From Methanobacteriota archaeon (GTDB taxonomy: Archaea > Thermoplasmatota > Poseidoniia > Poseidoniales > Poseidoniaceae), in contig NZFU01000035.1 of assembly GCA_002689345.1 (NCBI GenBank), forward strand, positions 1 through 32,320: 32,320 nt of DNA, in the 5' to 3' direction. Shown here piece by piece: positions 7,672-32,320 of this stretch; position 1 is the stretch's first letter, and each line of letters begins with the position of its first letter. Under the pieces are notes generated by a model. It was not told the DNA's origin, made no database searches, and saw only the letters and a program-made list of their open reading frames with translations. Both the position numbers and the translations under genes were made by a program.

Positions 7672-7717
7672 TTGGAAGGGGTTGCTTTGAATTACATTGA
7701 GTTCATCCAGTGAGCAC

Positions 7718-10700
7718 ATGGCGTCACCAAATAGGGGGGTTCAGGCGTTCGCGCTTAGCCTCTTATTCCTTCTTTCAGGCCCTGTGTCACAGTTTTTCAT
7801 GGTAGAAGGACCAATAATTGAATTAGAATCAGATGAAATGTTTGCTAGTGGTTCGGGAGACATCACAGAGGTGACAATAGCTGGCCCCGGTTCCATTGGT
7901 GTTGGGCCATCATTGATACTAGATTCAAATCATGCATTGCAAACCATTTCGTATTCGGTTACAACCGGTGATGGGGTTAGAGCCACAGGCTTTGATTGGT
8001 CGGATTGGGATCAAACCGGATTTTCAACTCAAGGATTGCTAGAAGATACAGATGGTGCATTGATTCTAGGATTCCAAGGGGTGAATTGGGACTTCGACAA
8101 AGGGACTAATGGCTGGACCTCTTCAAATTCTAATTATGGACAACGAAATACTCTCACTTGTGGTGTAAGCGGAGGAAACGGGGCTTCATGGTGGACTAGA
8201 GGCGGCGCAGTATCCGTAACAAGCCCTCAAGTCAACTTAGCGGGTCATCAAGGATTATCGGTTCAAGCATGGATTAAGCAAGGAAATTATCAGTGTGGAG
8301 AAGAGCCTGATTCAAACGAAAATTTCTATCTCGAATACAAGAATTCCAATAATGGCTGGACCCAAATGCAATACCTCGCAGGCGCAACCGCTGGCGGTAC
8401 TGTGACAAATATGAACTACAACCTTCCATCCAATGCCTACCACCCCAGTTTCCAAATTAGGGCACGACAAAATTCTGGTTCGGGAACATGTTGTGATTAT
8501 TGGTTCTTTGATGACATTACTATACCTGGTACCAGTGGTGCTAATCTGACAACTCGATCATTCGGTTGGTCTTCCGGGGCAAATGAGCAAATCGATGAAG
8601 GCAGATATTCACCGATTTATTTAGATGCGATTATACCCGAGGATTCCTACTTGAATTGGACAGTGATGGATGCAGATACCAATAATCCTGTTCCGGGATT
8701 GATCAACCGTTCAGGTAAATGGGTTGACCTTTCAGTAGTCGATTGGCAAACTCACAAATCGTTGTTCTTAAATCTGGAGTTTGTCGCTAATCAATCAGGT
8801 TCCTCTCCTAGATTATATGGTATTTCAGGCGGCGGGAAAATGTATGATAGTTTCAACTCCGACCCTGAAAATACAGGTTGGATATTCAACAACTCTAGCT
8901 GGACTTCATCATCTGATTTTGTTTCAGGAAATCTCAATGCAACCTTACAATCTCCCGAATTAGACATCAATATGCCATTTTCATCATACAAATTTGAATC
9001 TGATGTTCAAGGAGATGTGATGACCTATGTGTCGCTAGATCGAGGGAACTGGACTCAGATTAATACTTCATCACAGCGTATCGAATTAGCAGATTCGGCA
9101 TCGATTATACAGATCAAATATCAGGGATTAGTAAATACATGGTCAGTCGATGATTTCAGATTGCAACTATATCCAAGTAACGCTGTATTATCTCCGAGAA
9201 TGGATATCGATAATGACGGTAGAAACGAATGGACAGCATCTGGTGAAGGAATTGGCACATGGGGTAATCAGGATGTATTCATGGATGGTAATTCTAGTTC
9301 AACTTTCGAAGTAGGATTGAATCCTACCTCCTGGCATAGTCTTCTTGTTCCAAGAGATGCAAAAACCTTCGAATTGTCGGTTGACGATGTAGGAGTTGTT
9401 GGACTTGGAGTACAAACAATCGCATTATGGATTGGAAATACAATGATTGCTCAAACCGGTGGTAACGGTTATGTTGAAGGGTTGAGATTATCTCTTAACG
9501 AATCAGAATTAGACATGCTCAATTATGCAACAGGAAATACAGCTCCAGTCAGAAATGTAGGTGGTTCTGATTTTATTCATGCTAGAATCGAATTAATTTC
9601 AGACGCTGGAACTCATAGATTAGGGGGGCTGACAATAAGTTATGTTGCCCAAGACACAGTCAGTGCTACCGCAATCGATGAAATTGTTATGGCAATGAAT
9701 AGGGCGCGTTTGGATTCCAGTAAAGCGGCCGACCTTCCACTTGTATTCAAGGCAGATTCTGCTTGTTCATTGGAAGTTAGTATCATCTCTTCCACTTCAT
9801 CTGGAGATGTAACAATGGGTGCATTAACCTGGACTAACGATTCACAAACACTTACCCCCTCACAGAAATGGCGTGAAGTAAGTACTAGAGCCCAGGTTCA
9901 TTCATCATCCCCACATAGATTGATTCTGAATATGTATTCTGATGATATGTCTGCTATGTGGTTCATTCCAATATTGGGTGGAAACACAATCACAACCGGT
10001 GATCACGAATCTCTAATTATTTCAGATTCCGGTATCATACACAATAATTCACAAGACATTCACGATATTGTTACCAGTTTTAGAACTGCTCAATCTTTTG
10101 ACGACCAATCAAATCTAAGATTCGAAACTCGCATTCAACTTACAAATGGTGTAATTTCTATGCCTGCAATAGAAAACTGGAATAGTCCGGCAATCGATAA
10201 TGATATGCGTATTGAATCGATGTCAATTTACACGGACAGAGGTATTATTCCATCCGATTCGTTATATCTGAAGGCTGAAGATAATATGACTTTCAATATC
10301 GATATTGGATTTGAAAATGGAGATCTAGATGAAAAACCATTCCCTAATGAATATGAGATTCAACTGACAAGAAATGGTGAACTGATTGCGAATACCACAT
10401 ATTATGAGGGTGACGATTGGGTAGTTGAAACAAAAGCACCATTCACCAGTGGTAATGTGACCTATGAAGCGATTGTAACCCCACTTGCAGGAGGCGGAGT
10501 TGCTGACCCAGTGGTAATTAATCGGACATTCATCATCGATCCGTTGGCACCAGTTGTAACGGGTGCAAATATTCGCTTTTATGACCATTTATTATCATCT
10601 GCAAATCAGCAAATAATAATCAATATCACTGACCAACCAGTATTGCCAACAAATGTAACTTTGATGCTATGGACTGAATGGTCGAATGATAATGATGGAG

Positions 10701-12571
10701 ATGGCTGGCCTAGTGAGGACGAATTTATTGCTCGAACATTATCTCCTGATTCCACTTCTCAACAAACATATGGCTCGTATCATACCTTCATTGATGATAC
10801 CGCTGCATTCCCAGGGGAGAAGGTTGCAGGATATGTGATTGGAACAGACCCCTCAGGACATGCTCTGCTTGAAGGCGGTTCTGGAATGACCGATGACCAT
10901 TTGTTCATGTACCAGATTTTGAATGATGGCTCCCCATTGATTGCCAGTGATGGATTTGAATGGACTGATGGTAGAAAGGCTTGGCTTCATCCCGGTCAAG
11001 AATATGGATTGAATGTCACTTTCACAGAATTAAATGGTATTTCGGATATCAGTGGTATTGAGATTTCTTTAGCGGATAATATCGCTAGTGACCAACTTAC
11101 ATTGCGATGGGATTCCAATACAAGACAATGTATTAGTGAAACCGTTCATATCGCTATTGCATCTTGCAAAGTGAACGACAACAATGGCTTGACTCCAGAC
11201 CCGTATGACCAAGATCTCGTACTCTATCTCGAGATTGTTCCACAGTGGACATTACCGGATTTGGGAGATACTAGAAGAGAGCCAATAGTTCGTATTTTTG
11301 ACCGTGCAGGTAATCTTGACTCAGTGTCTTTCCCTCAAAATCGATGGAGATTTTCCGCAGAAATGATGATTCCTAACGAATTGTCGTTATGGGTTGAAAA
11401 TGGAGCAATCATCGAAGATGGTGCTAGAGTTTCACCAGGCTCTTCAATGGAATTATCTGGAGACCTTGTGTTTATGAGAAGTTTAGAAAAACCACAATTT
11501 GATTGTGACATAGAGGTCCGTCTTAATGGTGTGAAAACCTCAGCTATAGCAATAGATGGCTCATTCACAGCAGCCCTCAATGCACCGATGTCTTCAGGAC
11601 AGCATGCAATGACTTGGAATGTAGATTGTATGCCTGAACAAGGCATTGACATGACCAGTCCTACCGAGGCAGTAAAATGGATTCTAGTAGATGCAGTTGG
11701 GCCTCAAGTGGTGGAATTTTCATCACCAAGAGATTCATCAATTCTTGATACAGAACAACACTTTGTTCGAGTTATAATCTCTGAAAATTATGGTATTGAT
11801 ACCGAATCTGTTGAATTATATTGGTGGGTGACTGGTAAGGGTCAAAATGATGCTATTGCGTCAGGAACATCACCTCTTCAGTTAGATGGTAATGAGAGTG
11901 CAGGTCTACGTTTGGAATTCACTGGCACGGTTGATTTATCTGGAATCTCATCCGAGTTCTTACACGAACAAGTCGTACTGAAAATGAGATTCGAAGGAAG
12001 AGATATTGCGGGTAATCAATTTGAAAGAGATGGCAATAGTGAAAATTTCCCTGCAGGTGTATGGGACTTAGTTCACCATACTCCTGATTTTTCATTAGAG
12101 CAAAGTGGTATTGAATTATCAAAATCGAATTTAGAAGTAGATGAACCAACAATTGTGCAGGTACATATTCGCAATGATGGAATGTTGAGTGGAGATGCAG
12201 AAGTTCTTGTGGAAATTGTTGATTTGAATGGCGCTCGCTCTCAATTGACTAAGACTTCAGTATTTGTTGACGCACAATCAGTCTCTACATTAGTTGTGGA
12301 TTGGAAGCCAAATACTCCAGGAATTCAGAGAGTCGAAGTAACTCTAGACCAGACTACAGACAACTCCGAATTTATCGATGTAAAGCCAGTTCAAGATCGA
12401 GGATTTATGCAAGATTCAATCGGTTCAACAAACCCTTGGATACTTGGAATAACGATGACGATGATTTGTATTGGTCTGCTGTTTGTACTTTCTTGGATGC
12501 GACTTGCTACCGTTAAGCAAGGAGAATCTGATCTGGAATGGGAATATGAAGATGAAGAGTTTGAGGATTAG
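7718..12571 (+). CDS. Giant single-pass surface protein, 1617 aa
   Basis: Predicted cell-surface protein anchored by one C-terminal helix. A signal peptide spans about residues 1-30. Residues about 124-272 form a Gly/Trp/Cys-rich jelly-roll (MAM- or reelin-like), introduced by WDFDKGTNGW; a second similar module lies at about 374-484. Calcium-binding-type Asp loops occur as DNDGRNEW and NDNDGDGWPSEDE. Several Ig/CARDB-like domains follow, the last at about 1450-1550 with the usual IRNDG core. The membrane helix is at about 1573-1594, and the protein ends in a short acidic cytoplasmic tail. Asn-X-Ser/Thr sequons are numerous, suggesting heavy N-glycosylation. The ATG at 7718 is preferred over a TTG seven codons upstream. 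Role unknown; an envelope, adhesion or cell-contact protein is inferred. Confidence 0.85.
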   Translation: MASPNRGVQAFALSLLFLLSGPVSQFFMVEGPIIELESDEMFASGSGDITEVTIAGPGSIGVGPSLILDSNHALQTISYSVTTGDGVRATGFDWSDWDQTGFSTQGLLEDTDGALILGFQGVNWDFDKGTNGWTSSNSNYGQRNTLTCGVSGGNGASWWTRGGAVSVTSPQVNLAGHQGLSVQAWIKQGNYQCGEEPDSNENFYLEYKNSNNGWTQMQYLAGATAGGTVTNMNYNLPSNAYHPSFQIRARQNSGSGTCCDYWFFDDITIPGTSGANLTTRSFGWSSGANEQIDEGRYSPIYLDAIIPEDSYLNWTVMDADTNNPVPGLINRSGKWVDLSVVDWQTHKSLFLNLEFVANQSGSSPRLYGISGGGKMYDSFNSDPENTGWIFNNSSWTSSSDFVSGNLNATLQSPELDINMPFSSYKFESDVQGDVMTYVSLDRGNWTQINTSSQRIELADSASIIQIKYQGLVNTWSVDDFRLQLYPSNAVLSPRMDIDNDGRNEWTASGEGIGTWGNQDVFMDGNSSSTFEVGLNPTSWHSLLVPRDAKTFELSVDDVGVVGLGVQTIALWIGNTMIAQTGGNGYVEGLRLSLNESELDMLNYATGNTAPVRNVGGSDFIHARIELISDAGTHRLGGLTISYVAQDTVSATAIDEIVMAMNRARLDSSKAADLPLVFKADSACSLEVSIISSTSSGDVTMGALTWTNDSQTLTPSQKWREVSTRAQVHSSSPHRLILNMYSDDMSAMWFIPILGGNTITTGDHESLIISDSGIIHNNSQDIHDIVTSFRTAQSFDDQSNLRFETRIQLTNGVISMPAIENWNSPAIDNDMRIESMSIYTDRGIIPSDSLYLKAEDNMTFNIDIGFENGDLDEKPFPNEYEIQLTRNGELIANTTYYEGDDWVVETKAPFTSGNVTYEAIVTPLAGGGVADPVVINRTFIIDPLAPVVTGANIRFYDHLLSSANQQIIINITDQPVLPTNVTLMLWTEWSNDNDGDGWPSEDEFIARTLSPDSTSQQTYGSYHTFIDDTAAFPGEKVAGYVIGTDPSGHALLEGGSGMTDDHLFMYQILNDGSPLIASDGFEWTDGRKAWLHPGQEYGLNVTFTELNGISDISGIEISLADNIASDQLTLRWDSNTRQCISETVHIAIASCKVNDNNGLTPDPYDQDLVLYLEIVPQWTLPDLGDTRREPIVRIFDRAGNLDSVSFPQNRWRFSAEMMIPNELSLWVENGAIIEDGARVSPGSSMELSGDLVFMRSLEKPQFDCDIEVRLNGVKTSAIAIDGSFTAALNAPMSSGQHAMTWNVDCMPEQGIDMTSPTEAVKWILVDAVGPQVVEFSSPRDSSILDTEQHFVRVIISENYGIDTESVELYWWVTGKGQNDAIASGTSPLQLDGNESAGLRLEFTGTVDLSGISSEFLHEQVVLKMRFEGRDIAGNQFERDGNSENFPAGVWDLVHHTPDFSLEQSGIELSKSNLEVDEPTIVQVHIRNDGMLSGDAEVLVEIVDLNGARSQLTKTSVFVDAQSVSTLVVDWKPNTPGIQRVEVTLDQTTDNSEFIDVKPVQDRGFMQDSIGSTNPWILGITMTMICIGLLFVLSWMRLATVKQGESDLEWEYEDEEFED

Positions 12572-20402: not shown

Positions 20403-20540
20403 GGTGTGTCCAAGAAGTGATAGCAAATCAAGGCTTTCATCGGCCTTTTTTCCGCCTACTAAATCTCCAATGCCCCTTTTATGCAAAACGGGTAACCTTT
20501 AACGCGAAACGCATTAAATCAGTAGTACCCATCGATTGTC

Positions 20541-20547
20541 TTATAAT
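20541..20547 (+). promoter_or_regulatory. TATA box for the 20571 gene and possibly the whole archaellum run
   Basis: TTATAAT is centred 27 bases before the ATG at 20571, so the predicted transcription start falls at the start codon, giving a leaderless mRNA. No Shine-Dalgarno-like sequence precedes that ATG. Every downstream gene to the window end runs in the same direction with gaps of at most 81 bases, so this may be the promoter of the whole run. Confidence 0.5.
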
Positions 20548-20570
20548 CCGCCCGGTCACAACATAAAGCC

Positions 20571-20996
20571 ATGGCAGCCGGACGTATGTCGCGAAGGTGT
20601 CGCAAGTTCATGCGACAAATTCACAAGGCTACGTCTAGATATGGCTTACAGGAGATAGCATCGAAGATCCAAAGTGATTTAGATCGCCGCAATCTTTCTT
20701 ACGAGGAAGCATTGAATCTTGGCAACATCTTGCAAGACAGGGCAGACACACTTCCTGGAGATGAAATCGTCTATGCGGTTTCAGACCGCGATTCCTATCG
20801 TAGAACTTTAGAATTATATTTGCGAGATGGGGTCTTGACTCAGGCCGAACAATTGTTGCTTTGGGAAGAGAGAAGGCGATTAGGAATTGGCGACTTGATT
20901 CACAACCAATTGATGGAGCAATTGTTAGCCGCTTGGACTAGACAAGGTAAGTCGGTTCAGATCCATGCATTCAAGGGGGGGATGGCAGATGTCTAA
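20571..20996 (+). CDS. Small charged helical protein upstream of giant surface protein, 141 aa
   Basis: Not recognised. The first 30 residues are strongly basic (Arg, Lys, His). The rest is predicted helical with many Leu, Arg, Asp and Glu, for example ELYLRDGVLTQAEQLLLWEE. There is no signal peptide, membrane segment or Cys motif, so it should be cytoplasmic. The ATG at 20571 has a TATA box at leaderless distance. The stop codon overlaps the start of the 1662-residue surface protein by eight bases (ATGTCTAA), implying translational coupling and a shared process. An adaptor or regulator for the membrane protein is a guess from context only. Confidence 0.75.
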   Translation: MAAGRMSRRCRKFMRQIHKATSRYGLQEIASKIQSDLDRRNLSYEEALNLGNILQDRADTLPGDEIVYAVSDRDSYRRTLELYLRDGVLTQAEQLLLWEERRRLGIGDLIHNQLMEQLLAAWTRQGKSVQIHAFKGGMADV

Positions 20997-23900
20997 TCGT
21001 AAGGTAGCATTTTCTATTCTGATTGTTTTATTGTTACAGGTATCTGTACCAATGATTCCAGTAGATGCCACCAGTGGAAGAAGCACCCCCGATTTCACCG
21101 TTTCAGTAATGACTCTTTCATCCGGTGGTTCAATCGATGATGCAGGCCAATACAAACTTGCACCTGGAGACCACATTGTAAGAATGGTTGTTTCAAATAA
21201 TGGTTTAGCAGATGGAACTGCAACTTTGAATCTCATTCACAGAGCATCAGCATCATCTGGCGAGACCACTGTAACTTCGATTAATCTAGGAATTATAGGA
21301 GCGTCATCCTCTTCCAATACCATCCTAGTTAACTGGACTGCGAATTCTGGTGATGGCCAAACATTGTTTGCTAGAGTCGTTTCTAGCGAAGATTCCGATT
21401 TGTCCAATAACGAGAGAACATTGGATTTTGATGTGACTATGCTTCACCGAGGCTCGGTATTGGGAGACACAGTCCCCGGTCCTACTGGTGGATTTACCGA
21501 TGTTCGCTTGAATCATACGATTCATACATTCGATGCTACGGTTAGAAATGATGGAGTCATGGATGTTTCTGCGGTCTTCGAATTGAATTTCACCGACAAT
21601 AATAACGTCGCTAACCAGGTTTCATTTTGGTCTAACACGTTGATATTAGAGCCGGGTAGTTTGCTGTATCCTTCAGTAGGGGGCGGATTATCTGCATCTT
21701 TCGATGCGACATCGATGCTTGGCTCATGGACTCTTGCAGCAAAAGTACACTTCAATGGAACGATGTGGACAAATACAATTGTTAGAGCGGTTGAAACAGT
21801 TACCTTTTCTGATTACATTATCGATGTATCAACTCCCGGTGACAGAGCGATTGAGCCTGGAGCTACTACGACAATGACTTGGCTTATTTCGAATCTAGGA
21901 AGTACAGATGATTTGACAATCGAACTCGGATCCGATTTAGGATGGCATGACGATTCACAAGAAGGTACGGTAATCAATATCGCAAGTGGAGAGTCGACCA
22001 GTATAGTAGTTCCAGTAACAGTTCCTATTGATGCTGTAAAACCGACACTAGAAAATATCTATTTGAATTTGTCAAGTAATTCAATCACCCCTTACACTGC
22101 AAGAAGTGTGGCGCATGTGATGGTTGGCGACCAATACCAAGCAACAGTCATCGCGCCTTTAGGGCCGGTAACAGTAACTCCTGCCCAGACCACATCTCTA
22201 TTATTCACAATCGTAAATAGTGGAAATGTGCCTGCCGCATTCGACCTAGAGACGGGACTATCAGCAGCTGCAGACAATTGGATATTCACACTAAGTTCAA
22301 CCACAACAGATGTAATTCCAGTAGGTGAAAATGTTAGTGTTTCAGTTCAAGTGATTCCTGCTCCAATCTCTTCTCCATTAGATGTAGGTGAGAGAAACGC
22401 TGCAGGAGACAGCCTTTACTCTTGGCTTTCAGCAATTCCTACCGATGGAGGCATTCCTGCCATCAATTCCACACAAATGGTAGTTAGAGCGGTTATTGCT
22501 GTTGACCCTGGGCCAGAAACAGAACAAATTGTTCTCACAGAAGAAGAAGTTGTTCAGGCTAATGGTTCGGGAGGGATTGATCAAATTTTGTCTCTATCAG
22601 TAGAGGTTCGTCATAATTTAGGCGGGGCTGTTACAGGAGGTGTTGATGCTAACATTACAGTAACAACTCCTGTGTTCACGCCAATCAATACCGGAGGGAA
22701 TAATGAAGCAATCCGCTGGAATTCAACTGTAACCCCCTCTTCAGTATCAGGTCTTGAAGTGGGAGAAATATTCCAATCATGGCTTGCAATCGATGGGCCC
22801 GGAGATGAACTTCCTCTTGCAGGCGAATTGATTTTACCTGTAACAGCAACTCCAATTTTGACAGCAGGACAACAAGCTAACGGCGTCTTAGCAAGCAGTG
22901 TTACAAGAAACATCAGTATTCTAGTCCCTAGTGTTACAGATGGAGAAATAATCACTGAAGGCCCTCTAGATGCTGATGTTGGCAACCTAACTAATTTCAC
23001 AATTAAATTAGCAAATACAGGAAACGACCTCTCTTCTTATCGTCTTGTGATCGAAGATGATTTGCCCGACCTGTGGTCAGCGAGTTTGGAAACCTCAGAT
23101 GTTGATAACCCATCTATTGTTGCAAATCTTTCTCCTTCGATGGCAGACCATCCAATAACTGGAAACGCACACATCTCCAATGTTACACTGAAAGTGACAA
23201 CCGACCCTCAAGCACCAGCCGATACACTGCAGCCACTAACCATTAGAGTGGAAGATCGAGACACCGGGCAAGTCCTATCACTCAACACCCTTTTGATTAG
23301 AGTTGAAGAATCGATTAACTTTGAATTACAACCTACTAACCATACTATCGATTTATCTCCATATGAAACTCCATTGACAAGGGTTTACATCAATAATACT
23401 GGAAACGTCGCAACCACATTCTCAGTATGGCTCGATGATAGTATGGAGAACGATGTTGATTTCTCGTTAGAATCTTCAAATGAAATTGTAATCGCCCCCG
23501 GGTACACCGATTCGGTTAAGATTCGATTAACTCCAGATTTAGAGGCAAGCGCTGATGATTCTCACATGATTACCTTGTGGGTTTCTGCTATTGGAGGCAT
23601 GAACTTATCCGCTTCTATCGTTGCAAATATTACAGCAGACCATCATTTGACAATCGATGTACAAGATACCGTTTCAGTGACGCCTGGCGTGAATAAAACC
23701 ATCGATGTGACATTTTCCAATACAGGCAACCTTGAGGAATCGTTGAATGTTACAGCCGTGGTTGAAGGCGGATGGGGTACTTCTTGGGTTGAAAATCAAA
23801 TGGTTTTACCAATTAATGGAAGCCTTGATAATGATTTGACAATAGTGATTCCTGCATTAGGTGGAAATGATTCACTAGCCAATGGCGATACACACAATGT

Positions 23901-25977
23901 CACAATTTCACTGTACCATTCTAGTAATGGTGGATTCTTATCCTCCAGGACAATCACTCTAGTAGTGGCGCCACTATTCCTAGTGGAATTGAATAATTGG
24001 CCTACTGAGATGCTATATCACCGCTATTGGGAGCAAGAATGGAACGTGACAGTGACCAATGTTGGAAACAAGGATGTTATTGTAGATCTAGACTTTGAAG
24101 TTCTAAAACCAGGTCTAGAGATCAACTCTATTGCATGGGAAGTAGATACTGAAGCACCGAATTCGTTGGTACTACCAATCGGTATGCCCGTAAAATTGAG
24201 TTTCATAGTTGATGCAAAAGAATTCGAGCCAGATATTTATCTTGAAGCGCAATTGAGATTGACAATGACTCCAGAAGATTCTGAAATTTCTGGAACTTCA
24301 ATTGCTGAAACTGCTCTAAAGATGTCAAAATTATTCCCTTATCAAGATTACAAGTTGACTCCGAGTGCAGATAATTCAAATCTTTCAGAGAATATTTACT
24401 GGTCTCACTACGACCAGAGTGATGAACAATCTTCCTACTTGATTGAATTATGTGGTGCTGAAAGGCGTGTTAACTTGACCGAATTAGGACTTAGTGAGTC
24501 CGATTTCAAATGGAACTTCGGCCTAAATGTAGATGGGGAAACAGAAACCCTAGATCTTTCCAATGATTGTGACGGTGGAGTCCATTCTACAATCACCCTC
24601 CCACCTAGAGCCGCATGGGATACATCTCAGAATCCATTGAATATCATAATCGATACTCCCGATAAACCGAATATCTTGAGAAACGATGGATATGATTTGA
24701 CATTTAGGTTATACCACCCTGATCAAAATTTAGGATACACAGTTTACACTGAAGCAACTTTTGAGTTCTACTTCAACACCATTGCAATTCCAACAATTGT
24801 AGATTTATCATTCTCAGGCGATGATCTTCAAGAAGGAGTCGAATCTCAAGTTACAGCCACTCTTAGAAACGATGGAACATCCATTGCTTTACAGGTTAGT
24901 GCTGAATTGGTTTGTGATGGAATAGCTGTAGAAGATTCATTGTATCAATTACCAATTTTAGGCCATGAATATTCTGAAACAATATCTTGGGATGTTGAAA
25001 CCGACCATTTAGATTGGTGGGCCCAATCTAGTGATGTATCATGTACGGTTATCCTTGATGCGAAATCATGGGATGGCAAGCAAATGCCTACTCAGACTTA
25101 CAATTTAGATGGCGAGGTTGAATCTTGGTCTCCTGGAATTGGAATCTCTTTCATCGCACTACTAGCATTATTGGGCGCTTCTATTGGATTGTTAAGGCTG
25201 GTTGGCCAGAATGATAAATTCCGATTAGCAGCCATCTATTCCGGTGTCTTGGCACTAGGATTTGCATTCCACTTGATGAGTCTAGTTTCAAGCGAATGGG
25301 GAGGCCCAGCAATACTGTTGATAGCCGCCCTATGGGTCTGGATTATGACTTGGAAGTCTACGGTTGAATTCCAGTTGATTCATGAGGATTATCAACGTGC
25401 ACGAAAAGGAATCAGTACGCTATACAGTGACCATTTCGATGTATTATCGGATGCTAAGCGCCAACTTTCGATTATTCTAGCAATGCCGATATTAGGTATG
25501 ATTGGAGTAATTCTAGGCCTTCCGCCTCAAATGAGTCCTGATTCATCTAACATAATCACTCTTATCGGTTATCTAATCGTAGTTATTGTTGGAGTAATAT
25601 TCCTTGTATGGAATGCAAACAGAATGTATGGTTCACTGTATGGAAGGCTTACTGAAGTTGAAGTTCAAGCCAGCCGCATCGAGAGAGATTTGGGTGACCC
25701 TGCTCGGTTATTGACCGAACTTGCCAGCGATGGATTGGATATCACTTCGATAATTTCTCGGCCTAAACCAAGCACTACAGTAACAGGTTCCGCATCAACA
25801 TCAGATGTCATAGATTGGGACGAAGATCTAGACGTTCTAACCGAAGAAGAGTCGGCAACTGATTCCGATGAGGTCGCATCTGAAGATGAAAATCAAGATG
25901 AAGATACTGGCATCGACATCGAAGATTTGTTCGAGGATGAAGAAGAAGCAAGCGAGGAGGTGAGCGATGATGACTGA
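20989..25977 (+). CDS. Giant Ig-domain membrane protein upstream of archaellum genes, 1662 aa
   Basis: Predicted envelope protein. A signal peptide spans about residues 1-26. The ectodomain (about 30-1375) is a chain of roughly nine Ig-like modules of CARDB or NEW3 type, each with a core such as VVSNNGLADG, TVRNDGVMD, LISNLGSTDD, TIVNSGNVPA, KLANTGNDLS, INNTGNVATT, TFSNTGNLEE, TVTNVGNKDV and TLRNDGTSIA. Five membrane helices lie at about 1378-1405, 1413-1435, 1437-1457, 1491-1511 and 1521-1541, putting the C-terminus inside. The tail has a helical part and an Asp/Glu-rich end (about 1600-1662). Asn-X-Ser/Thr sequons are abundant. ATG 20989 is preferred over 20965 because it begins the signal peptide and follows a G-rich ribosome site. 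It overlaps both neighbours. An envelope scaffold linked to the archaellum is inferred from context. Confidence 0.85.
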   Translation: MSNRKVAFSILIVLLLQVSVPMIPVDATSGRSTPDFTVSVMTLSSGGSIDDAGQYKLAPGDHIVRMVVSNNGLADGTATLNLIHRASASSGETTVTSINLGIIGASSSSNTILVNWTANSGDGQTLFARVVSSEDSDLSNNERTLDFDVTMLHRGSVLGDTVPGPTGGFTDVRLNHTIHTFDATVRNDGVMDVSAVFELNFTDNNNVANQVSFWSNTLILEPGSLLYPSVGGGLSASFDATSMLGSWTLAAKVHFNGTMWTNTIVRAVETVTFSDYIIDVSTPGDRAIEPGATTTMTWLISNLGSTDDLTIELGSDLGWHDDSQEGTVINIASGESTSIVVPVTVPIDAVKPTLENIYLNLSSNSITPYTARSVAHVMVGDQYQATVIAPLGPVTVTPAQTTSLLFTIVNSGNVPAAFDLETGLSAAADNWIFTLSSTTTDVIPVGENVSVSVQVIPAPISSPLDVGERNAAGDSLYSWLSAIPTDGGIPAINSTQMVVRAVIAVDPGPETEQIVLTEEEVVQANGSGGIDQILSLSVEVRHNLGGAVTGGVDANITVTTPVFTPINTGGNNEAIRWNSTVTPSSVSGLEVGEIFQSWLAIDGPGDELPLAGELILPVTATPILTAGQQANGVLASSVTRNISILVPSVTDGEIITEGPLDADVGNLTNFTIKLANTGNDLSSYRLVIEDDLPDLWSASLETSDVDNPSIVANLSPSMADHPITGNAHISNVTLKVTTDPQAPADTLQPLTIRVEDRDTGQVLSLNTLLIRVEESINFELQPTNHTIDLSPYETPLTRVYINNTGNVATTFSVWLDDSMENDVDFSLESSNEIVIAPGYTDSVKIRLTPDLEASADDSHMITLWVSAIGGMNLSASIVANITADHHLTIDVQDTVSVTPGVNKTIDVTFSNTGNLEESLNVTAVVEGGWGTSWVENQMVLPINGSLDNDLTIVIPALGGNDSLANGDTHNVTISLYHSSNGGFLSSRTITLVVAPLFLVELNNWPTEMLYHRYWEQEWNVTVTNVGNKDVIVDLDFEVLKPGLEINSIAWEVDTEAPNSLVLPIGMPVKLSFIVDAKEFEPDIYLEAQLRLTMTPEDSEISGTSIAETALKMSKLFPYQDYKLTPSADNSNLSENIYWSHYDQSDEQSSYLIELCGAERRVNLTELGLSESDFKWNFGLNVDGETETLDLSNDCDGGVHSTITLPPRAAWDTSQNPLNIIIDTPDKPNILRNDGYDLTFRLYHPDQNLGYTVYTEATFEFYFNTIAIPTIVDLSFSGDDLQEGVESQVTATLRNDGTSIALQVSAELVCDGIAVEDSLYQLPILGHEYSETISWDVETDHLDWWAQSSDVSCTVILDAKSWDGKQMPTQTYNLDGEVESWSPGIGISFIALLALLGASIGLLRLVGQNDKFRLAAIYSGVLALGFAFHLMSLVSSEWGGPAILLIAALWVWIMTWKSTVEFQLIHEDYQRARKGISTLYSDHFDVLSDAKRQLSIILAMPILGMIGVILGLPPQMSPDSSNIITLIGYLIVVIVGVIFLVWNANRMYGSLYGRLTEVEVQASRIERDLGDPARLLTELASDGLDITSIISRPKPSTTVTGSASTSDVIDWDEDLDVLTEEESATDSDEVASEDENQDEDTGIDIEDLFEDEEEASEEVSDDD

Positions 25978-26938
25978 AGAAGAGTATGATGTTGGAGCCT
26001 CAGACCTTGAGGATGCTCGTAAAGTAATCCGTGCTTCTCAAACCAGTGCTGATCGTCTCATTCGTGCTAGTAGAGAGTTAGAACACATCGTTTACGGTGT
26101 TTCAAGTGATGAATCATCATTAGCAGCAACCGATTTCGATATCAATGATGCTAGAACTAATCTCGAACAGCACAAGTTATTCCATGCTAAGAGGTCGGTT
26201 AAGCGTGCAGAAAAGGCACTAAGTTCAGTCGAATCAGATGTTTTAGAATTGCGTAGAAACATTGCAATGCTGAATCGATTGCTAAATGAGAAAACACTGA
26301 CTGAAGCAGAATTAGAAATTATTCTACGACGTCTTCGTAATGCGACAGGTGCGGCTGAAATCGGCGAAGTAGGATATGCTGCTGAAGAGGTTGAACAATT
26401 GATTGGCGACTTAGTAGTCGATTCAGCAGTTGCCCTTAATCCGTTCTTATTCCGAAATTTCTGGATGGGAGTTGACACCCGGTGGCCAGCAGGTGGAGAA
26501 ACGGGTGTTATGATTATTCGAATGTGTAATGATGGTACTAGACCGATTCCTGAAATGCGCTTAGCACCGCCGGTCCCTGATGGCTGGCAATGCGTGCCTG
26601 AATCAATTGACCTGCCAATAATGCGTCCAGGGGATGTAATATTGGTTCGTTTCGATGTCAAGCCAGGACTACGTTTTGCATTAGATGAAATTCCACTATC
26701 TCGAAAGTTAGCCATTCAAACTGGTTATGAAGTTACAGCTGGCAAAGTCAAAGTGACTATGAGAGTTCAGAACCGCAGTATGGAAACGGTTCGCGATTTA
26801 TTATTACAACCTTGGATGCCACCAGGGTACAAGGCAGAGGTTCTTCCACTAGTGGAGAAACTCTCTCCAGACGAAATCGGAGTGCTAGTTATGCCACTCG
26901 TGATTGACATGGGCGACGGAGGTGAAACCGCCGCCTGA
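25967..26938 (+). CDS. Coiled-coil / Ig-like protein between surface protein and archaellins, 323 aa
   Basis: Not recognised as a named family. There is no signal peptide and no membrane segment, so it is predicted cytoplasmic. Residues about 8-150 are long amphipathic helices with heptad character (for example KLFHAKRSVKRAEKALSSVE), suggesting a coiled coil. Residues about 160-315 look like beta-sandwich: RMCNDGTRPIPEMRLAP resembles the core of the NEW3/CARDB modules in the preceding protein, and MRVQNRSMETVRDL may start a second. The start overlaps the end of the giant protein by 11 bases, with GAGGAGGTGAG just upstream; ATG 25970 is an equal choice. A cytosolic partner of the giant protein's acidic tail is a plausible inference. 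Confidence 0.8.
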   Translation: MMTEEEYDVGASDLEDARKVIRASQTSADRLIRASRELEHIVYGVSSDESSLAATDFDINDARTNLEQHKLFHAKRSVKRAEKALSSVESDVLELRRNIAMLNRLLNEKTLTEAELEIILRRLRNATGAAEIGEVGYAAEEVEQLIGDLVVDSAVALNPFLFRNFWMGVDTRWPAGGETGVMIIRMCNDGTRPIPEMRLAPPVPDGWQCVPESIDLPIMRPGDVILVRFDVKPGLRFALDEIPLSRKLAIQTGYEVTAGKVKVTMRVQNRSMETVRDLLLQPWMPPGYKAEVLPLVEKLSPDEIGVLVMPLVIDMGDGGETAA

Positions 26939-26962
26939 TCATATTCCACCTTGCGGCGGTTT
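26925..26962 (+). other. Ten-base-pair hairpin between coiled-coil gene and first archaellin
   Basis: AAACCGCCGC (26925-26934) is a perfect inverted repeat of GCGGCGGTTT (26953-26962), with an 18-base loop. The left arm lies in the last codons of the 25967 gene, and the TGA stop is in the loop. GC-rich stem pairing suggests a stable RNA structure that could act as a processing or attenuation site. The region after it to 27006 is purine- and A-rich and could hold a second promoter for the archaellins. Confidence 0.5.
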
Positions 26963-27006
26963 AGCCAGCGAGGGAGGATTGTAGAGATACGAAAAAAATA
27001 AAAAAT

Positions 27007-27019: not shown

Positions 27020-27595
27020 ATGCAAAAGAAAAATATGAACAAAGAAAGCAACGATTGTGGTTCAATCGGTATAGGTGCGATGATTGTATTCATCGCTCTT
27101 ATTCTGGTTGCTGCGGTCGCTAGTGCAGTGATCATCCAAACGGGTGAGAAGTTGCAGCAGAACGCACAGCAGTCGGGAAGCGACACGCAACAGGAAATAT
27201 CGGGTAAAATCTCGATTATTACTGTCTGGGTGGGCGATACCCCTACTGCTAATAACGAAGAGATAACGATGGTGTTTGAATTGGCACCGGGTTCTGAACC
27301 GATGTCAAATAGTGCAGTATTCTGGTCGGTTATCTGTGACGATGGTGCTGGTACTCCAGCATTCGCAGATGGCGATTTGACCGGAGCGACAAACCTGGAC
27401 ACTTCGGCGATTGTAGGCGGCACATTCAACCCTGGTGAAACATACATGGTTGATTTGAATGTAGGGGACGCAGGTAATGGGTGCCCTCCAGCTCTTAACG
27501 AAGAGCATTCAATGATTGTAACTGCTAATGGCGGAGGAACAACTTTCGAAACCCTGAGTTACGTAAGTACTGACAGAGGAGACACAATTGTTTGA
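27020..27595 (+). CDS. arlB1: Archaellin 1 (archaellum filament protein), 191 aa
   Basis: Filament subunit of the archaellum. The N-terminus is a class III (prepilin-like) signal: 14 residues ending in Cys-Gly, with predicted cleavage after Gly14 by an ArlK/PibD-type peptidase, then SIGIGAMIVFIALILVAAVA, the conserved assembly helix. A Gln/Ser-rich segment (QQNAQQSGSDTQQEISGKI) continues the helix as in other archaellins. The outer domain is a beta-sandwich with two cysteines (VICDDG and GNGCPP) that match a pair in archaellin 2. It has no Asn-X-Ser/Thr sequon. Residue -2 to cleavage is Cys rather than the usual Lys/Arg. Third codon positions are more G/C-rich than in archaellin 2. The second archaellin follows after nine bases. 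Confidence 0.93.
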   Translation: MQKKNMNKESNDCGSIGIGAMIVFIALILVAAVASAVIIQTGEKLQQNAQQSGSDTQQEISGKISIITVWVGDTPTANNEEITMVFELAPGSEPMSNSAVFWSVICDDGAGTPAFADGDLTGATNLDTSAIVGGTFNPGETYMVDLNVGDAGNGCPPALNEEHSMIVTANGGGTTFETLSYVSTDRGDTIV

Positions 27596-27604
27596 GGTGA
27601 TATC

Positions 27605-28192
27605 ATGAAGACTAATAATCAAATTAAGAACGACGAAATAGGCTCAATCGGAATCGGTGCAATGATTGTATTCATCGCTTTGATTCTAGTTGCAGCAGTA
27701 GCATCCGCAGTAATTATCCAAACTGGAGAAAAATTACAGCAAAATGCTCAGCAATCTGGAAGTGACACACAACAGGAAATATCTGGTAAGATTTCGATAA
27801 ACTCAGTGTTTGTCTTTGACCCAGATGACTCATTCCTAGTTTACTTCGAAACAGCTCCTGGATCTGAAATTATTCCAGCAGCAGATGTTCAATTCCAATT
27901 GACATGCGAAGATACTAATGGAAACTACGAGTACGTTTCAGGTGATTTCACCGCTGCAGACGATGTCGATGACATCGGTGACGGTGACGGAGACGGTGCG
28001 GTTACAAACCTACTTCCTGGTGTAAGTTATTCCTTAGTAATGGACGCTGACACCGGCGCAACATCATCTTGTGATGCTACAAGCGTTGGAGTCAATGGCG
28101 ACATTACATTCTGGATACACGTTGGAAGCGGTGGCTCAACCTACGAGACTCTGTACATTTCAGACGCTACTAGAGGATCACTGGTTATCTGA
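27605..28192 (+). CDS. arlB2: Archaellin 2 (archaellum filament protein), 195 aa
   Basis: Second filament subunit. The signal of 13 residues ends Ile-Gly, and cleavage before Ser14 is predicted. From Gly13 onward, 53 residues are identical to archaellin 1, although 29 of those 53 codons differ, all silently. The outer domain diverges. It keeps the Cys pair (LTCEDT and SSCDAT) and adds an Asp/Gly loop DDIGDGDGDGAV resembling a calcium-binding loop, absent from archaellin 1. There are no N-glycosylation sequons. GAGGTGAT at 27594-27601 is the ribosome site and includes the end of the preceding stop codon. Downstream is a bulged hairpin before the motor genes. Two archaellins may form major and minor or alternating filament components. 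Confidence 0.93.
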   Translation: MKTNNQIKNDEIGSIGIGAMIVFIALILVAAVASAVIIQTGEKLQQNAQQSGSDTQQEISGKISINSVFVFDPDDSFLVYFETAPGSEIIPAADVQFQLTCEDTNGNYEYVSGDFTAADDVDDIGDGDGDGAVTNLLPGVSYSLVMDADTGATSSCDATSVGVNGDITFWIHVGSGGSTYETLYISDATRGSLVI

Positions 28193-28260: not shown

Positions 28261-29082
28261 ATGGCTTGGCCATTCGGTAGCAGTGATAAGGCGGGAGACG
28301 CTCAAAGCGATCTCTCTGAGGAGCGCTTGCGCGTCATGGCAAATGTTGCCATAGAGCAAGTGCCAATGCCTGAAGAAGGCGAACTCTCAGAGGAAGATGC
28401 TTGGACGATTGCTCCTGGACCTACTAGAGCTCGGCTCAATAATGCAGGAGCCCTGCCAGCCGCAGCAGCAGCCGCTGCTCCAGCGCAGGTGCAAGCGAAT
28501 GTCGATACATCAGGTATTGAGCGACTAATTTCTAGTCGCTTAGACATGGTTGAAGACGTTCTACGCATGGTTGAAGGACGACTTGAAGACGGTATGACTA
28601 CCGTTGTTAGTGCGGATGATGCAGCAACAGAAACTGGTGAAGTCGAACTTAGCGAAGGCGATACAATCGTCACCGCTTCGGGAGAAGTAATCTCTGGCTC
28701 TGCATCTCAACGCCTAATGTCTGAAGATTCAGCCCCTCTATTGGAGTTGTATGAAGCTCAAGCTTTGGCATCTAATCCTTTCCTAATCGCTCCGGCGCAT
28801 TTGGGAGATGGTGCAGATGGAACAGTCGGTGCGCCGACTGTAGCAGCACTTCTACTTGACAATCTGTCCGGTATGGCAGCAGTCTCCTTCACACAGAAGG
28901 CGATGAGTTCTGGCATGCTTACAGCAGATGAAGGAAAGTATGTATTGGCAATTGTCCAAATGGCCGCTCCTGGTGATACAGAGAGCGCTCTAGAGGACCA
29001 TTTGCCACACAGAGAATTGCTAACATTCTCGGCTCTTATCTCCAACTGGAGAAGAGCACGAGCACTCAGAGGTGAAGAGTGA
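28261..29082 (+). CDS. ArlC/D/E-like archaellum cytoplasmic component, 273 aa
   Basis: Position right after the archaellins is where ArlC, ArlD and ArlE lie in euryarchaea; these form the cytoplasmic ring that links the motor to chemotaxis. The protein has no signal peptide or membrane helix. An acidic N-terminus is followed by an Ala/Pro-rich linker (about 64-78), a short helix (about 84-110) and a C-terminal helical domain (about 170-270). That domain's order fits the ArlD/E domain: a helix LLLDNLSGMAAVSFTQKAMS, an SGMLTADEGKYVLAI segment like the family's SEEVRDLLL region, and the end HRELLTFSALISNWR. AGGAGGT lies six bases before the ATG. Similarity is remote, so the assignment depends partly on gene order. 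ArlF follows with no gap. Confidence 0.65.
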   Translation: MAWPFGSSDKAGDAQSDLSEERLRVMANVAIEQVPMPEEGELSEEDAWTIAPGPTRARLNNAGALPAAAAAAAPAQVQANVDTSGIERLISSRLDMVEDVLRMVEGRLEDGMTTVVSADDAATETGEVELSEGDTIVTASGEVISGSASQRLMSEDSAPLLELYEAQALASNPFLIAPAHLGDGADGTVGAPTVAALLLDNLSGMAAVSFTQKAMSSGMLTADEGKYVLAIVQMAAPGDTESALEDHLPHRELLTFSALISNWRRARALRGEE

Positions 29083-29724
29083 ATGGGTAGCGTAGCAGTT
29101 GGAGCAATGGTTGTTGGAACATCCTTGCTTGTAGTATTTGCATTAGCAATGGCTACACTCGAAGCGCAGGTGGAAGATTCCATCGCACAAATCGAGGCAA
29201 CTGCTGAACCCATTACTCAATTCACCATTGAGAACGCGAATAACGTTGATGGAGCAGTGGTATCATTCACTATAAACAATGGCGGAAGCGGCTATTCAGC
29301 CGGCCAAGTCGAAGTGAATGGTAGTACAGGCTCCTTCCTCGCAAACCTACAGATCTCGAGTGGTATTGTAACAGGATTAGATGTCCTAAATTACGGTGCA
29401 TCGTATCTCTACACTCCCTCACTCTATTTCCTCGAGGTCGTAGGTTTTAACACGGGCAACAACCTAAATATTTCAGTCACTATTGGACATTTAATTTTCA
29501 CAAATATTACCAATGATGGAAGTACGGATTTAGATACCGACTTTTCATGGCTGTTTATTGATGGCGGTTCTCCAATTAATCTCTCATCTGGGATAGATGG
29601 TTATTTACCGAATACCATTTTCCCAGGTGAGACTTTTGAATTTATTTATGATAATGCAAATACTGCAGCAACAAGGCTTGCAGTTACAATCGATGGCCAA
29701 ACGAAGGCATCGAGAGTAATTTGA
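29083..29724 (+). CDS. arlF: ArlF, archaellum stator protein with unusual insertion, 213 aa
   Basis: ArlF and ArlG form the periplasmic stator that holds the motor to the S-layer. The start MGSVAVGAMVVGTSLLVVFA gives the N-terminal membrane helix (about 5-25), followed by an extended helix (EAQVEDSIAQIEATAEP) as in the family. The C-terminal beta-sandwich has the usual ITNDGSTDLDTDFSWLFIDG core at about 141-161. Between them, residues about 60-134 are extra: GGSGYSAGQVEV, a variable stretch, then GIVTGLDVLNYGASYLYTPS, resembling GxGYxxxP repeats of adhesins and phage tail proteins. Normal ArlF is about 140 residues, so this is about 70 longer. Sequons are present (NGS, NIS, NIT, NLS). The ATG follows the preceding stop directly. 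F rather than G is judged from order and N-terminus. Confidence 0.78.
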   Translation: MGSVAVGAMVVGTSLLVVFALAMATLEAQVEDSIAQIEATAEPITQFTIENANNVDGAVVSFTINNGGSGYSAGQVEVNGSTGSFLANLQISSGIVTGLDVLNYGASYLYTPSLYFLEVVGFNTGNNLNISVTIGHLIFTNITNDGSTDLDTDFSWLFIDGGSPINLSSGIDGYLPNTIFPGETFEFIYDNANTAATRLAVTIDGQTKASRVI

Positions 29725-29733
29725 GGTGTTAAT

Positions 29734-30228
29734 ATGGCAGATGGCGGCGCTAGTACAATGATTCTGCTTGTAACTTCGTTATTGATTAGTGGGGCCGCAT
29801 CTGTGGTTTTACTAGAATCATGGGGCGAGGTTGCAGAAGCTAGTGGTACTAATGTGAAAGGAAATGTTGCTGATGCAGAAACAGATGTTTCATTCAGTGG
29901 CGATAGAGGTGATGTATTATTGGATACATCAGGCTCCAATCAAGAAATCACATTATATTTCCAAAACTCTGGAATTAGGCCCTTAGATAAATCCTCATTC
30001 ACTATATTCGTTGACGGAGTTTCAGCTACAACGGTTGGAGCTGCAACTCTTTATCCTGCCAACGGAGTTTGGGCTACAGATTATGTTCTGGAAGTTACAG
30101 TAACAGATTCTTCATTCAATTATAATGACAATGATTTGGCATCTGTAACAATCATTGTCCAATCAACCGTTAGCGACGGAGTTAAGGGTACAGATTCAGA
30201 AACAGCTGAGGTGAGACTAAGTGTTTGA
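29734..30228 (+). CDS. arlG: ArlG, archaellum stator protein, 164 aa
   Basis: Partner of ArlF in the stator. The N-terminal membrane helix (about 7-26, STMILLVTSLLISGAASVVL) is followed by a Val/Ala/Glu stretch and a beta-sandwich with the family core ITLYFQNSGIRPLDKSSFTI and FVDG. Length is normal for the family. GAGGTG of the upstream stop-codon region (TTTGAGGTG) serves as ribosome site, repeating the arrangement between the two archaellins. There are no Asn-X-Ser/Thr sequons, unlike ArlF. The 3' end overlaps the ArlH start by eight bases. Assignment rests on sequence pattern plus the F-G-H-I order. Confidence 0.83.
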   Translation: MADGGASTMILLVTSLLISGAASVVLLESWGEVAEASGTNVKGNVADAETDVSFSGDRGDVLLDTSGSNQEITLYFQNSGIRPLDKSSFTIFVDGVSATTVGAATLYPANGVWATDYVLEVTVTDSSFNYNDNDLASVTIIVQSTVSDGVKGTDSETAEVRLSV

Positions 30229-30937
30229 TGAAGCTCCAAAACCGGTTGAAGACGGTTATGAATTTACCCTTGAACAAGACAGTCTTTCCAACGCGATGGG
30301 TGCACGTTTGCCTAACCGAAGTTTATGGATGATTCAAGGAGAGGTAGGTAGCGGTAAATCATTGGTTAGTCAAAGGTTGGTTTACGGACTCTTAGAGAAC
30401 GGCTCAAAAGTTTTAGTCGTAACCACTGAATTAACCACAAGAGGTTGGATAGAACAAATGGAATCAATCGGTTACCCCGTCACCGAGCATATTGCAAAAG
30501 GCAGGCTCCTAGTATTCTCTAGATTTGGTGTAATAGCCGAAGCAAAAGAAGGAGTGGACATCTTTGATGTTCTTGAATCCGAGGCGGTTGAGAAATCCGA
30601 TGTAGTAGTAGTAGATTCATCATCTGCTCTAATGCCAACAGGACTTGAAAACGCACAACAACTCGGTGTATTACAAAGACTGCGACGAGTTTGCAGTGAA
30701 TCACGCTCACTATTGTTAACCATAGATCCAACTGAAATGGATGACAAATTATTGCACAAACTACGTTCATCTTGCGAAGTATTACTCGACATGGCAGCAG
30801 GTTTCGTTGGTGGAGAAATCAAGAGAACAATCATTGTAACGAGATTTTTACGCGCAGCAGGACCTGTTCAAGCAAGTGTTGGTTGGCGTGTTGAGCCTTA
30901 CATGGGCTTCATCGTAGACATTACGGCGGTGAGCTGA
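30221..30937 (+). CDS. arlH: ArlH, archaellum motor regulator (KaiC-like ATPase), 238 aa
   Basis: RecA/KaiC-like ATP-binding protein that sits in the cytoplasmic ring and regulates the ArlI motor ATPase. Walker A is GEVGSGKS at residues 40-47. The strand DVVVVDSS near 127-134 is Walker B with Asp132, followed by Ser rather than Glu as usual in ArlH, so hydrolysis may be weak. TTELTTRGWIEQMES matches the switch segment after the second strand. It starts at a GTG (30221) with GAGGTGAG six bases upstream, overlapping ArlG by eight bases. Its stop shares one base with the ArlI start (TGATG). Size and order are canonical. Confidence 0.94.
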   Translation: MFDEAPKPVEDGYEFTLEQDSLSNAMGARLPNRSLWMIQGEVGSGKSLVSQRLVYGLLENGSKVLVVTTELTTRGWIEQMESIGYPVTEHIAKGRLLVFSRFGVIAEAKEGVDIFDVLESEAVEKSDVVVVDSSSALMPTGLENAQQLGVLQRLRRVCSESRSLLLTIDPTEMDDKLLHKLRSSCEVLLDMAAGFVGGEIKRTIIVTRFLRAAGPVQASVGWRVEPYMGFIVDITAVS

Positions 30938-32320
30938 TGGAAGATGAAGAACTCAAATTCCAACGTGGCGATTTGGATTCGGTTATGGCCGCTCATCCAC
31001 ACGTAGCTCTCTGGGTCAAAGATTTCGAAGCAAAGTATGGAAGTAGGCCTTATTATTACGGCCCATTAGATAGAGACGCTCGAAAAATCCAGCCCATGAA
31101 TCTGATTTACATTACCAAAGAGCCAATTTTCGTTCACATGTATCGCCCTGTTGATGCGGATGGCTCAGAAGGCCAGACACTTTGGTTTGGATTAGAGCCT
31201 CAACTGACTGACGAAGAAGAAAACATCAGACGCACTCTTATCGAAGTACTTCTCCAAGAAGCACCTAGTGCTCCCTCTTTTACAACGGATGATGAATTTG
31301 AAAATATTCTATCTGGTATGATTGATAGGTACACAATTTTAGATTCTGAGGCAAGAAATGCAACACGACGTCAGGGGAGAATGTGGGAAGTTCTTGGAAT
31401 GGATGATAAGAGAATCATCGTTACTAAAGAGCAAAGAGACCGTTTGCGGTACATCATTATTCGAGATTTAATCCGTAACGGTCCATTAGAACCTCTTCTT
31501 TCTGATGAGATGCTGGAAGATATACACTCTGTTGGATTAAAGCATGTTCATATGGACCACAAAGTGTTTGGAATGGTTACTTCAAACATCAGATTCCGTG
31601 AAAGGGACTTGTTAGCAAGATATCTGCGTGCTATGTCTGAGCGTATTGGCCGGCCAGTTTCAGATAACAAACCAATTATCGATGGGGCCTTACTTGATGG
31701 TTCTCGTATTAACATCATATTTTCCGACGACGTATCCATGCTTGGACCGTCATTCACTATCAGAAAGTTCGCTGAGGAAACCATCTCGGTTACTCAACTA
31801 ATCAAATGGGGTACCATGAGTGCACAAGTCGCAGCATACATTTGGATTTGTTTGGAATATGGAATGTCGGTACTAGTGAGTGGTGAAACCGCTTCAGGAA
31901 AAACTACCACTCTAAACGCAATTCTACCATTCATCGATCACAATGTCAAAATATACTCGGCGGAAGATACCCCTGAAGTGAAAGTTCGCCACAAGATTTG
32001 GCAAAGGCTGGTTACTCGTGATTCTAAGAATGAAGAGAGCAGAGTTGAGATGTTCGATTTATTGAAAGCAGCATTACGTTCTCGTCCAAGATACATTATC
32101 ATTGGAGAAATACGTGGGGTTGAGGGAGCAACAGCCTTCCAGGCTATGCAGACTGGCCACCCAGTTATTGCTACTTTCCACGCATCATCTATCGTAAAGA
32201 TGATTCAGAGATTTACTGGTGACCCAATCAATGTTCCAATTCGTTTCTTCGATAACTTAAACTTTGCAATTTTCCAAGAAGTGGTCGAAGCACCAGGTGG
32301 TGGAATTGCTCGTCGTATTA
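30937..32320 (+). CDS. arlI: ArlI, archaellum motor ATPase (partial, cut by window end)
   Basis: Hexameric secretion-superfamily ATPase that powers filament assembly and rotation. The frame is open from ATG 30937 to the window edge (461 codons), with no stop. Visible motifs in order: Walker A GETASGKT (316-323), Asp box AEDTPE (342-347), Walker B YIIIGEIRG (386-394) and His box TGHPVIATFH (406-415). An N-terminal domain of about 270 residues precedes the ATPase core, as in the family. The start overlaps the ArlH stop (TGATG), a one-base overlap typical of coupled translation. Only the last part of the C-terminal domain should be missing; ArlJ is expected next, outside the window. Confidence 0.96.
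   Translation, partial: MEDEELKFQRGDLDSVMAAHPHVALWVKDFEAKYGSRPYYYGPLDRDARKIQPMNLIYITKEPIFVHMYRPVDADGSEGQTLWFGLEPQLTDEEENIRRTLIEVLLQEAPSAPSFTTDDEFENILSGMIDRYTILDSEARNATRRQGRMWEVLGMDDKRIIVTKEQRDRLRYIIIRDLIRNGPLEPLLSDEMLEDIHSVGLKHVHMDHKVFGMVTSNIRFRERDLLARYLRAMSERIGRPVSDNKPIIDGALLDGSRINIIFSDDVSMLGPSFTIRKFAEETISVTQLIKWGTMSAQVAAYIWICLEYGMSVLVSGETASGKTTTLNAILPFIDHNVKIYSAEDTPEVKVRHKIWQRLVTRDSKNEESRVEMFDLLKAALRSRPRYIIIGEIRGVEGATAFQAMQTGHPVIATFHASSIVKMIQRFTGDPINVPIRFFDNLNFAIFQEVVEAPGGGIARRI

Follow-up and report, generated by a model that had tools for sequence, protein, structure and literature searches.

Three adjoining genes, here called A, B, and C, lie directly upstream of the archaellin genes in an archaeon of the order Poseidoniales, and comparison with its relatives showed that their tie to the archaellum operon is not an accident of one genome. 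We propose, with about an even chance of being right, that A, B, and C form an accessory module dedicated to the archaellum, a membrane-spanning brace that would tie the motor to the cell envelope. The DNA analysed, referred to here as the window, is a stretch of 32,320 nucleotides that makes up the whole of contig C59 from a source genome that is 77% complete. Gene starts were set by the longest ORF or by alignment, and conservation figures for blocks of B are frequencies of the commonest residue. The features of the window that are needed below are as follows.

20534 to 20555, + strand: promoter-like element 5' of A (CGATTGTCTTATAATCCGCCC), a candidate transcription start of putative function
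20571 to 20996, + strand: gene A, a 141-aa basic helical cytosolic protein with no convincing match in family searches
20989 to 25977, + strand: gene B, a 1662-aa giant with a signal-like N-terminus, an Ig-like ectodomain, five predicted membrane helices, and the C-terminus predicted inside
25138 to 25695, + strand: membrane domain of B, five helices of which the last extends into the cytosol (AlphaFold2), found in archaellum-bearing lineages only
25366 to 25464, + strand: conserved, predicted cytosolic loop of B (EFQLIHEDYQRARKGISTLYSDH...), the top conserved block (0.78), with many invariant residues
25627 to 25734, + strand: conserved, predicted cytosolic helix of B (YGRLTEVEVQASRIERDLGDPARLL...), following the fifth membrane helix and second in conservation (0.68)
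25735 to 25977, + strand: acidic tail of B, not conserved (0.12), shorter or absent in other genera
25967 to 26938, + strand: gene C, a 323-aa cytosolic protein with a predicted helical bundle and two Ig-like domains, with homologues in other classes
26944 to 26978, + strand: RNA hairpin between C and the first archaellin, from covariation and a folding z of -3.8 against shuffles
27020 to 27595 and 27605 to 28192, + strand: two archaellin genes, PF01917 above cut-off
28261 to 29082, + strand: 273-aa gene at the ArlCDE position, placed by position and conservation, without a match in family searches
29083 to 29724, + strand: ArlF-like gene, weak match to NCBIfam ArlF
29734 to 30228, + strand: ArlG-like gene, NCBIfam ArlG
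30221 to 30937, + strand: ArlH-like gene, NCBIfam ArlH
30937 to the window end at 32320, + strand: ArlI, NCBIfam archaellum ATPase, running off the contig end

The three genes and the first archaellin are all on the + strand, and the ORF coordinates agree with the preliminary description, in which A and B overlapped by 8 bases, B and C overlapped by 11 bases, and the archaellins followed after a gap of 81 bases, from the stop of C to the archaellin start at 27020. The start of B was taken as the ATG at 20989, which is the second in frame; an in-frame ATG at 20965 would give a protein of 1670 aa. A promoter-like element was present at about the same distance 5' of A in 24 relatives, taking the form CCGATTCTTTCAATAACCGGC outside the genus. 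Scans for sigma-70 promoters and for terminators gave no more than chance, the promoter scan being one that does not cover archaeal promoters. The preliminary description had regarded the module as fused in transcription to the archaellum operon, a view that a strong terminator at 26940-27000 would have undermined; we looked for one there and found, 3' of the hairpin, A-rich sequence and a Shine-Dalgarno-like site in place of a T run, which rules out an intrinsic terminator. On the sequence, A through arl is probably one transcription unit, read from a promoter upstream of A.

The hairpin has the form UUCCA-CCC...GGG-A-GGA and is kept across genera of the Poseidoniaceae, with letters of the loop and stem varying with compensating changes. 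In the alignment 86% of cells were paired and 18 changes were two-sided, and 0 of 500 shuffles reached the observed percentage paired, number of two-sided cells, or covariation score; since the rows are related and motif-picked, which favours structure, the slid versions of the alignment, which scored clearly lower, are the better guide. It had no Rfam match. The element may possibly act in processing or stability before the archaellins.

B begins with a signal-like helix followed by Ig-like domains (family matches FixG_C, VWA7 Ig, NEW3, and CARDB), and the AlphaFold2 model of its tail, with a mean pLDDT of 74.9, places after an Ig region five long helices, the last of which continues into the cytosol (122-144, 147-165, 176-211, 217-247, and 257-307 of the part encoded by window positions 24775-25974). 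Family matches and model together bear out the earlier description of B as an Ig chain with five membrane helices. Conservation of the Ig chain was mostly 0.5-0.6, and the most conserved block of the protein lies in the loop that joins the third membrane helix to the fourth and is predicted to be cytosolic. What conservation keeps is the cytosolic face of B, as would suit a membrane anchor to which C, A, or the motor base docks. The acidic inner tail, to which the preliminary description had drawn attention, turned out to be peculiar to this genus. The length of B is steady, at 1664 +/- 36 aa in 58 Poseidoniaceae, and was considered as a sign of a molecular ruler; we rejected this because an unrelated giant protein encoded at 7697-12571 of the window is about as steady in the same genomes, so that length is no evidence for a ruler. 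This second giant, 1624 aa long and unrelated to the module, was matched in 58 of the 58 Poseidoniaceae genomes searched, usually as two copies or pieces.

C is predicted to be a helical bundle followed by two Ig-like domains (mean pLDDT 76.3). The model is soluble, and neither it nor the sequence has a signal or membrane helix, in keeping with the earlier picture of a signal-less protein with an Ig-type C-terminal part that stays inside the cell. Fold comparison with the PDB returned generic Ig matches only, and sequence searches of the PDB with the three proteins returned nothing useful. In genus g10 (L044:8065-9618), C carries a long N-terminal extension of acidic repeats, giving 518 aa in total by the longest ORF.

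In A, residues 70-120 are similar to part of some larger proteins, 330-500 aa in length. Full-length A was found only within the order, with none outside it among 174 genomes sampled across the phylum, and no recognisable A accompanies B and C in genera g13 and g20. Elsewhere in the genome from which the window comes, contig C30 (L192:735-2902) encodes a zinc-ribbon protein with a C-terminal part like residues 70-120 of A, and this gene directly adjoins one for an MreB/salactin-like actin. In genus g14 (L051:2080-5328), A and B are separated by an additional ORF, up to 1082 aa long, whose product has a membrane helix at its N-terminus.

The association with the archaellum was followed in 146 genomes of the order using the ArlI protein orthologue as the archaellum marker. 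Both C and ArlI were present in 84 genomes and neither in 53, with ArlI alone in 6 and C alone in 3 (Fisher p = 4e-29, a value that overstates independence because the genomes are related). Most genomes are incomplete, with contigs that often break in or near the archaellin genes, and eight of the nine mixed cases were contigs cut inside the operon. In five of the six genomes with ArlI alone the contigs were read, and these stop within the arl operon before the position of C; A or part of B was found at the end of another contig in G027, G141, G005, and G138, and nothing further of the module was found in G045 and G013. The three genomes with C alone are likewise cut by contig ends. Wherever C and ArlI were tabulated on the same contig (59/59 cases), they lay 3.2-4.4 kb apart on the same strand. 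The distributions of A and of the B membrane domain follow that of C and ArlI, except for A in g13 and g20, and the overlap of the B and C genes is kept across genera. The B membrane domain is missing from relatives that lack archaella, which argues against a general S-layer protein. In G119, a fragmented assembly without ArlI, a 3.2 kb contig carries A and the beginning of B. Public records, including the MG-II chromosome CM001443 and single-cell assemblies, carry the same genes, with all three at 60 of 80 loci and many of the remaining loci being short contigs. The check proposed with the preliminary description, that the trio should precede the archaellins in other Poseidoniales and be missing from relatives without arl, thus came out in its favour, both in gene order and in the 84/53/9 counts.

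Beyond the order, the profile of C gave weak matches in other classes of the phylum. At those loci the C-like protein is encoded directly 5' of an archaellin, and at several of them C is preceded by a giant Ig protein that is secreted and has five to six membrane helices near its C-terminus. Profile comparison supported homology both for C, across 251 columns (E 2e-10), and for the first part of the B membrane domain (E 1e-6), and a second profile built from the outgroup C proteins yielded further cases. The order B-C-archaellin was found in families f11 and f28, and f12 has C before an archaellin at the start of a contig; B-C pairs lay on contigs without an archaellin in f8, f18, and f26, and a C-like gene stood alone in f7, f22, and f25. 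Homologous B-C pairs thus precede archaellins in other classes, and the earlier characterisation of the module as lineage-specific does not hold. A weak match of the C profile in G201 was, judging by its context, taken as noise.

With a cut for C-type matches at E about 4e-15 or better, 18 of the 18 matching genomes outside the order had arl genes (16 by ArlI, and G172 and G215 by the archaellin beside the pair). Occurrence of the trio in genomes without arl had been named beforehand as an observation that would speak against a link, and every genome with a C-type protein proved to have archaellum genes. In G151 and G162 the B-C pairs lie away from arl and the genome still has an archaellum; no other finding points as strongly to a role for B and C in serving the archaellum as this co-occurrence, which survives the loss of synteny. 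Many archaellum operons of the phylum (families f24, f43, f27, and others) had no such genes upstream, from which it follows that the module is not needed for every archaellum, and loci tentatively taken as Thermoplasmatales were also without the pair. The B-C pair is widespread in the phylum but not universal to archaella.

Some further features of these loci were recorded. In G172 the bases of L193:1-6195, the expected place of the remaining arl genes, are unknown or masked (X), which can explain the missing ArlI of this genome. Four loci outside the order (L180, L182, L186, and L187, of families f16 and f32) have two tandem ArlI-like ATPase genes behind an ArlH-like gene. Genome G193 has two arl loci, L157 and L158, one with a B-C pair and the other without, and at the pair-less locus a chemoreceptor gene adjoins ArlI.

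The operon studied here is the same as the putative MGII motility operon of Tully 2019 (PMC6336850, Fig. 4), where "several orthologous proteins lacking annotations" are noted along with conserved genes adjoining FlaAGHIJ; A, B, and C are very probably among these. In the text passages of that paper the genes are neither described, classed, nor assigned a role, and the extension to other classes is absent. Two marks of an arl-operon component were found for the module: it is encoded in the arl cluster across lineages, with a minority of pairs elsewhere, and it is absent where archaella are absent, as in the 53 genomes of the order with neither C nor ArlI. Among known parts, the stator of ArlF and ArlG is proposed to act with the S-layer from the outer side of the membrane, holding the motor against the envelope (PMC8978795, PMC12448462). 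Both stator proteins are small, resemble archaellins, and are encoded here as well, whereas B, a giant Ig chain, has five membrane helices and exposes a face to the cytosol, and PF01917, ArlF, and ArlG had no match in A, B, or C, so that the three do not belong with that stator. The cytosolic ArlX ring of Crenarchaeota (ArlCDE in Euryarchaeota) occurs in lineages that lack chemotaxis and surrounds the motor ATPase as a scaffold tied to the membrane (PMC8978795). A single membrane helix and the lack of a giant ectodomain set ArlX apart from B, which has five C-terminal helices and such an ectodomain, and C has no membrane helix at all; family search found no similarity to ArlX, and a gene at the ArlCDE position is present besides. 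Family searches likewise found neither MCPsignal nor any other Che domain in the three proteins, which do not qualify as chemoreceptors or chemotaxis adaptors. Archaeal Ig-repeat envelope proteins of the NEW3/CARDB type resemble B in being secreted, membrane-anchored, and built of repeated Ig-like domains, but B has in addition a five-helix membrane domain whose cytosolic face is highly conserved, is accompanied by an Ig partner in the cytosol, and occurs in archaellum-bearing genomes only. None of the known stator or scaffold parts, ArlF/G, ArlX, and ArlCDE, has the make-up of A-B-C.

The main rival to a brace is a signal input, in which the ectodomain of B would sense a ligand or contact with a surface and C and A would pass this on to the ArlCDE/ArlH switch in place of the missing chemotaxis system. 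Poseidoniales are without identifiable chemotaxis genes (PMC6461757, PMC6864105), the cytosolic face is the most conserved part of B, and 9 of 10 module-bearing genomes outside the order had no MCPsignal match, the tenth having it at another arl locus, a count that covers module-bearing genomes only. Since family search found no signalling domain in any of the three proteins, we consider such a role unlikely. Ig chains are also commoner in structural and adhesive roles than in signalling. The adhesive role is the next reading to be weighed, with B as an adhesin or surface glycoprotein that is co-expressed with archaella for particle attachment and is helped into place by C and A. Surface proteins typically carry Ig chains, and the archaella of Poseidoniales have been proposed as adhesive (PMC6461757), yet the conserved part of B is its cytosolic face and not the ectodomain, the pair stays with the archaellum across classes, and the dedicated cytosolic Ig partner is hard to explain, which together make an adhesin improbable.

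The position of the module directly before the archaellin genes might also speak for help in making or exporting archaellins or other arl parts, in assembly or quality control and not in the finished machine. We see only a slim chance of this, as the family searches found no enzyme, chaperone, or transport domain, and neither the giant ectodomain nor the fact that other archaella manage without the module is readily accommodated. Least probable is the chance fusion of a neighbouring operon to arl with no functional tie, a reading to which the genes 5' of A, likewise kept in place within the family, lend something; it is largely refuted by the absence of the module together with arl in related genera, by its recurrence in other classes, and by the restriction of pairs away from arl to archaellum-bearing genomes.

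In the brace that we favour, B would reach outward with its Ig chain, cross the membrane with its five helices, and present the conserved loop and helix to the cytosol, where C and, in this order, A would bind that face together with the motor base in the ArlCDE/ArlH/ArlI region, so that the motor would be tied to the envelope. The scaffold or anchor suggested in the preliminary description fits the predicted topology and the conserved cytosolic face of B, without the restriction to one lineage. Its further suggestion that the genes replace the contacts between stator and S-layer is possible. Thermoplasmatales swim with archaella and without an S-layer (PMC12448462), and the absence of the pair from the loci tentatively assigned to them indicates that it is no general S-layer substitute.

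How the motor is held so that the filament turns, and not the motor itself, is an open question that is sharpest where there is no S-layer (PMC12448462). Tentatively, and with somewhat less than even confidence, we suggest that B-C is an old and undescribed transmembrane brace in Thermoplasmatota, a second stator or anchor that would link the cytosolic motor base to the outside in lineages mostly without chemotaxis and perhaps without an S-layer. The conserved hairpin provides an RNA element at the boundary before the archaellin genes, and the B and C families can serve as markers for archaellum-bearing members of the phylum. For the question of how the motor is held, these results supply named, testable genes in an archaeal group that is among the most abundant of the surface ocean.
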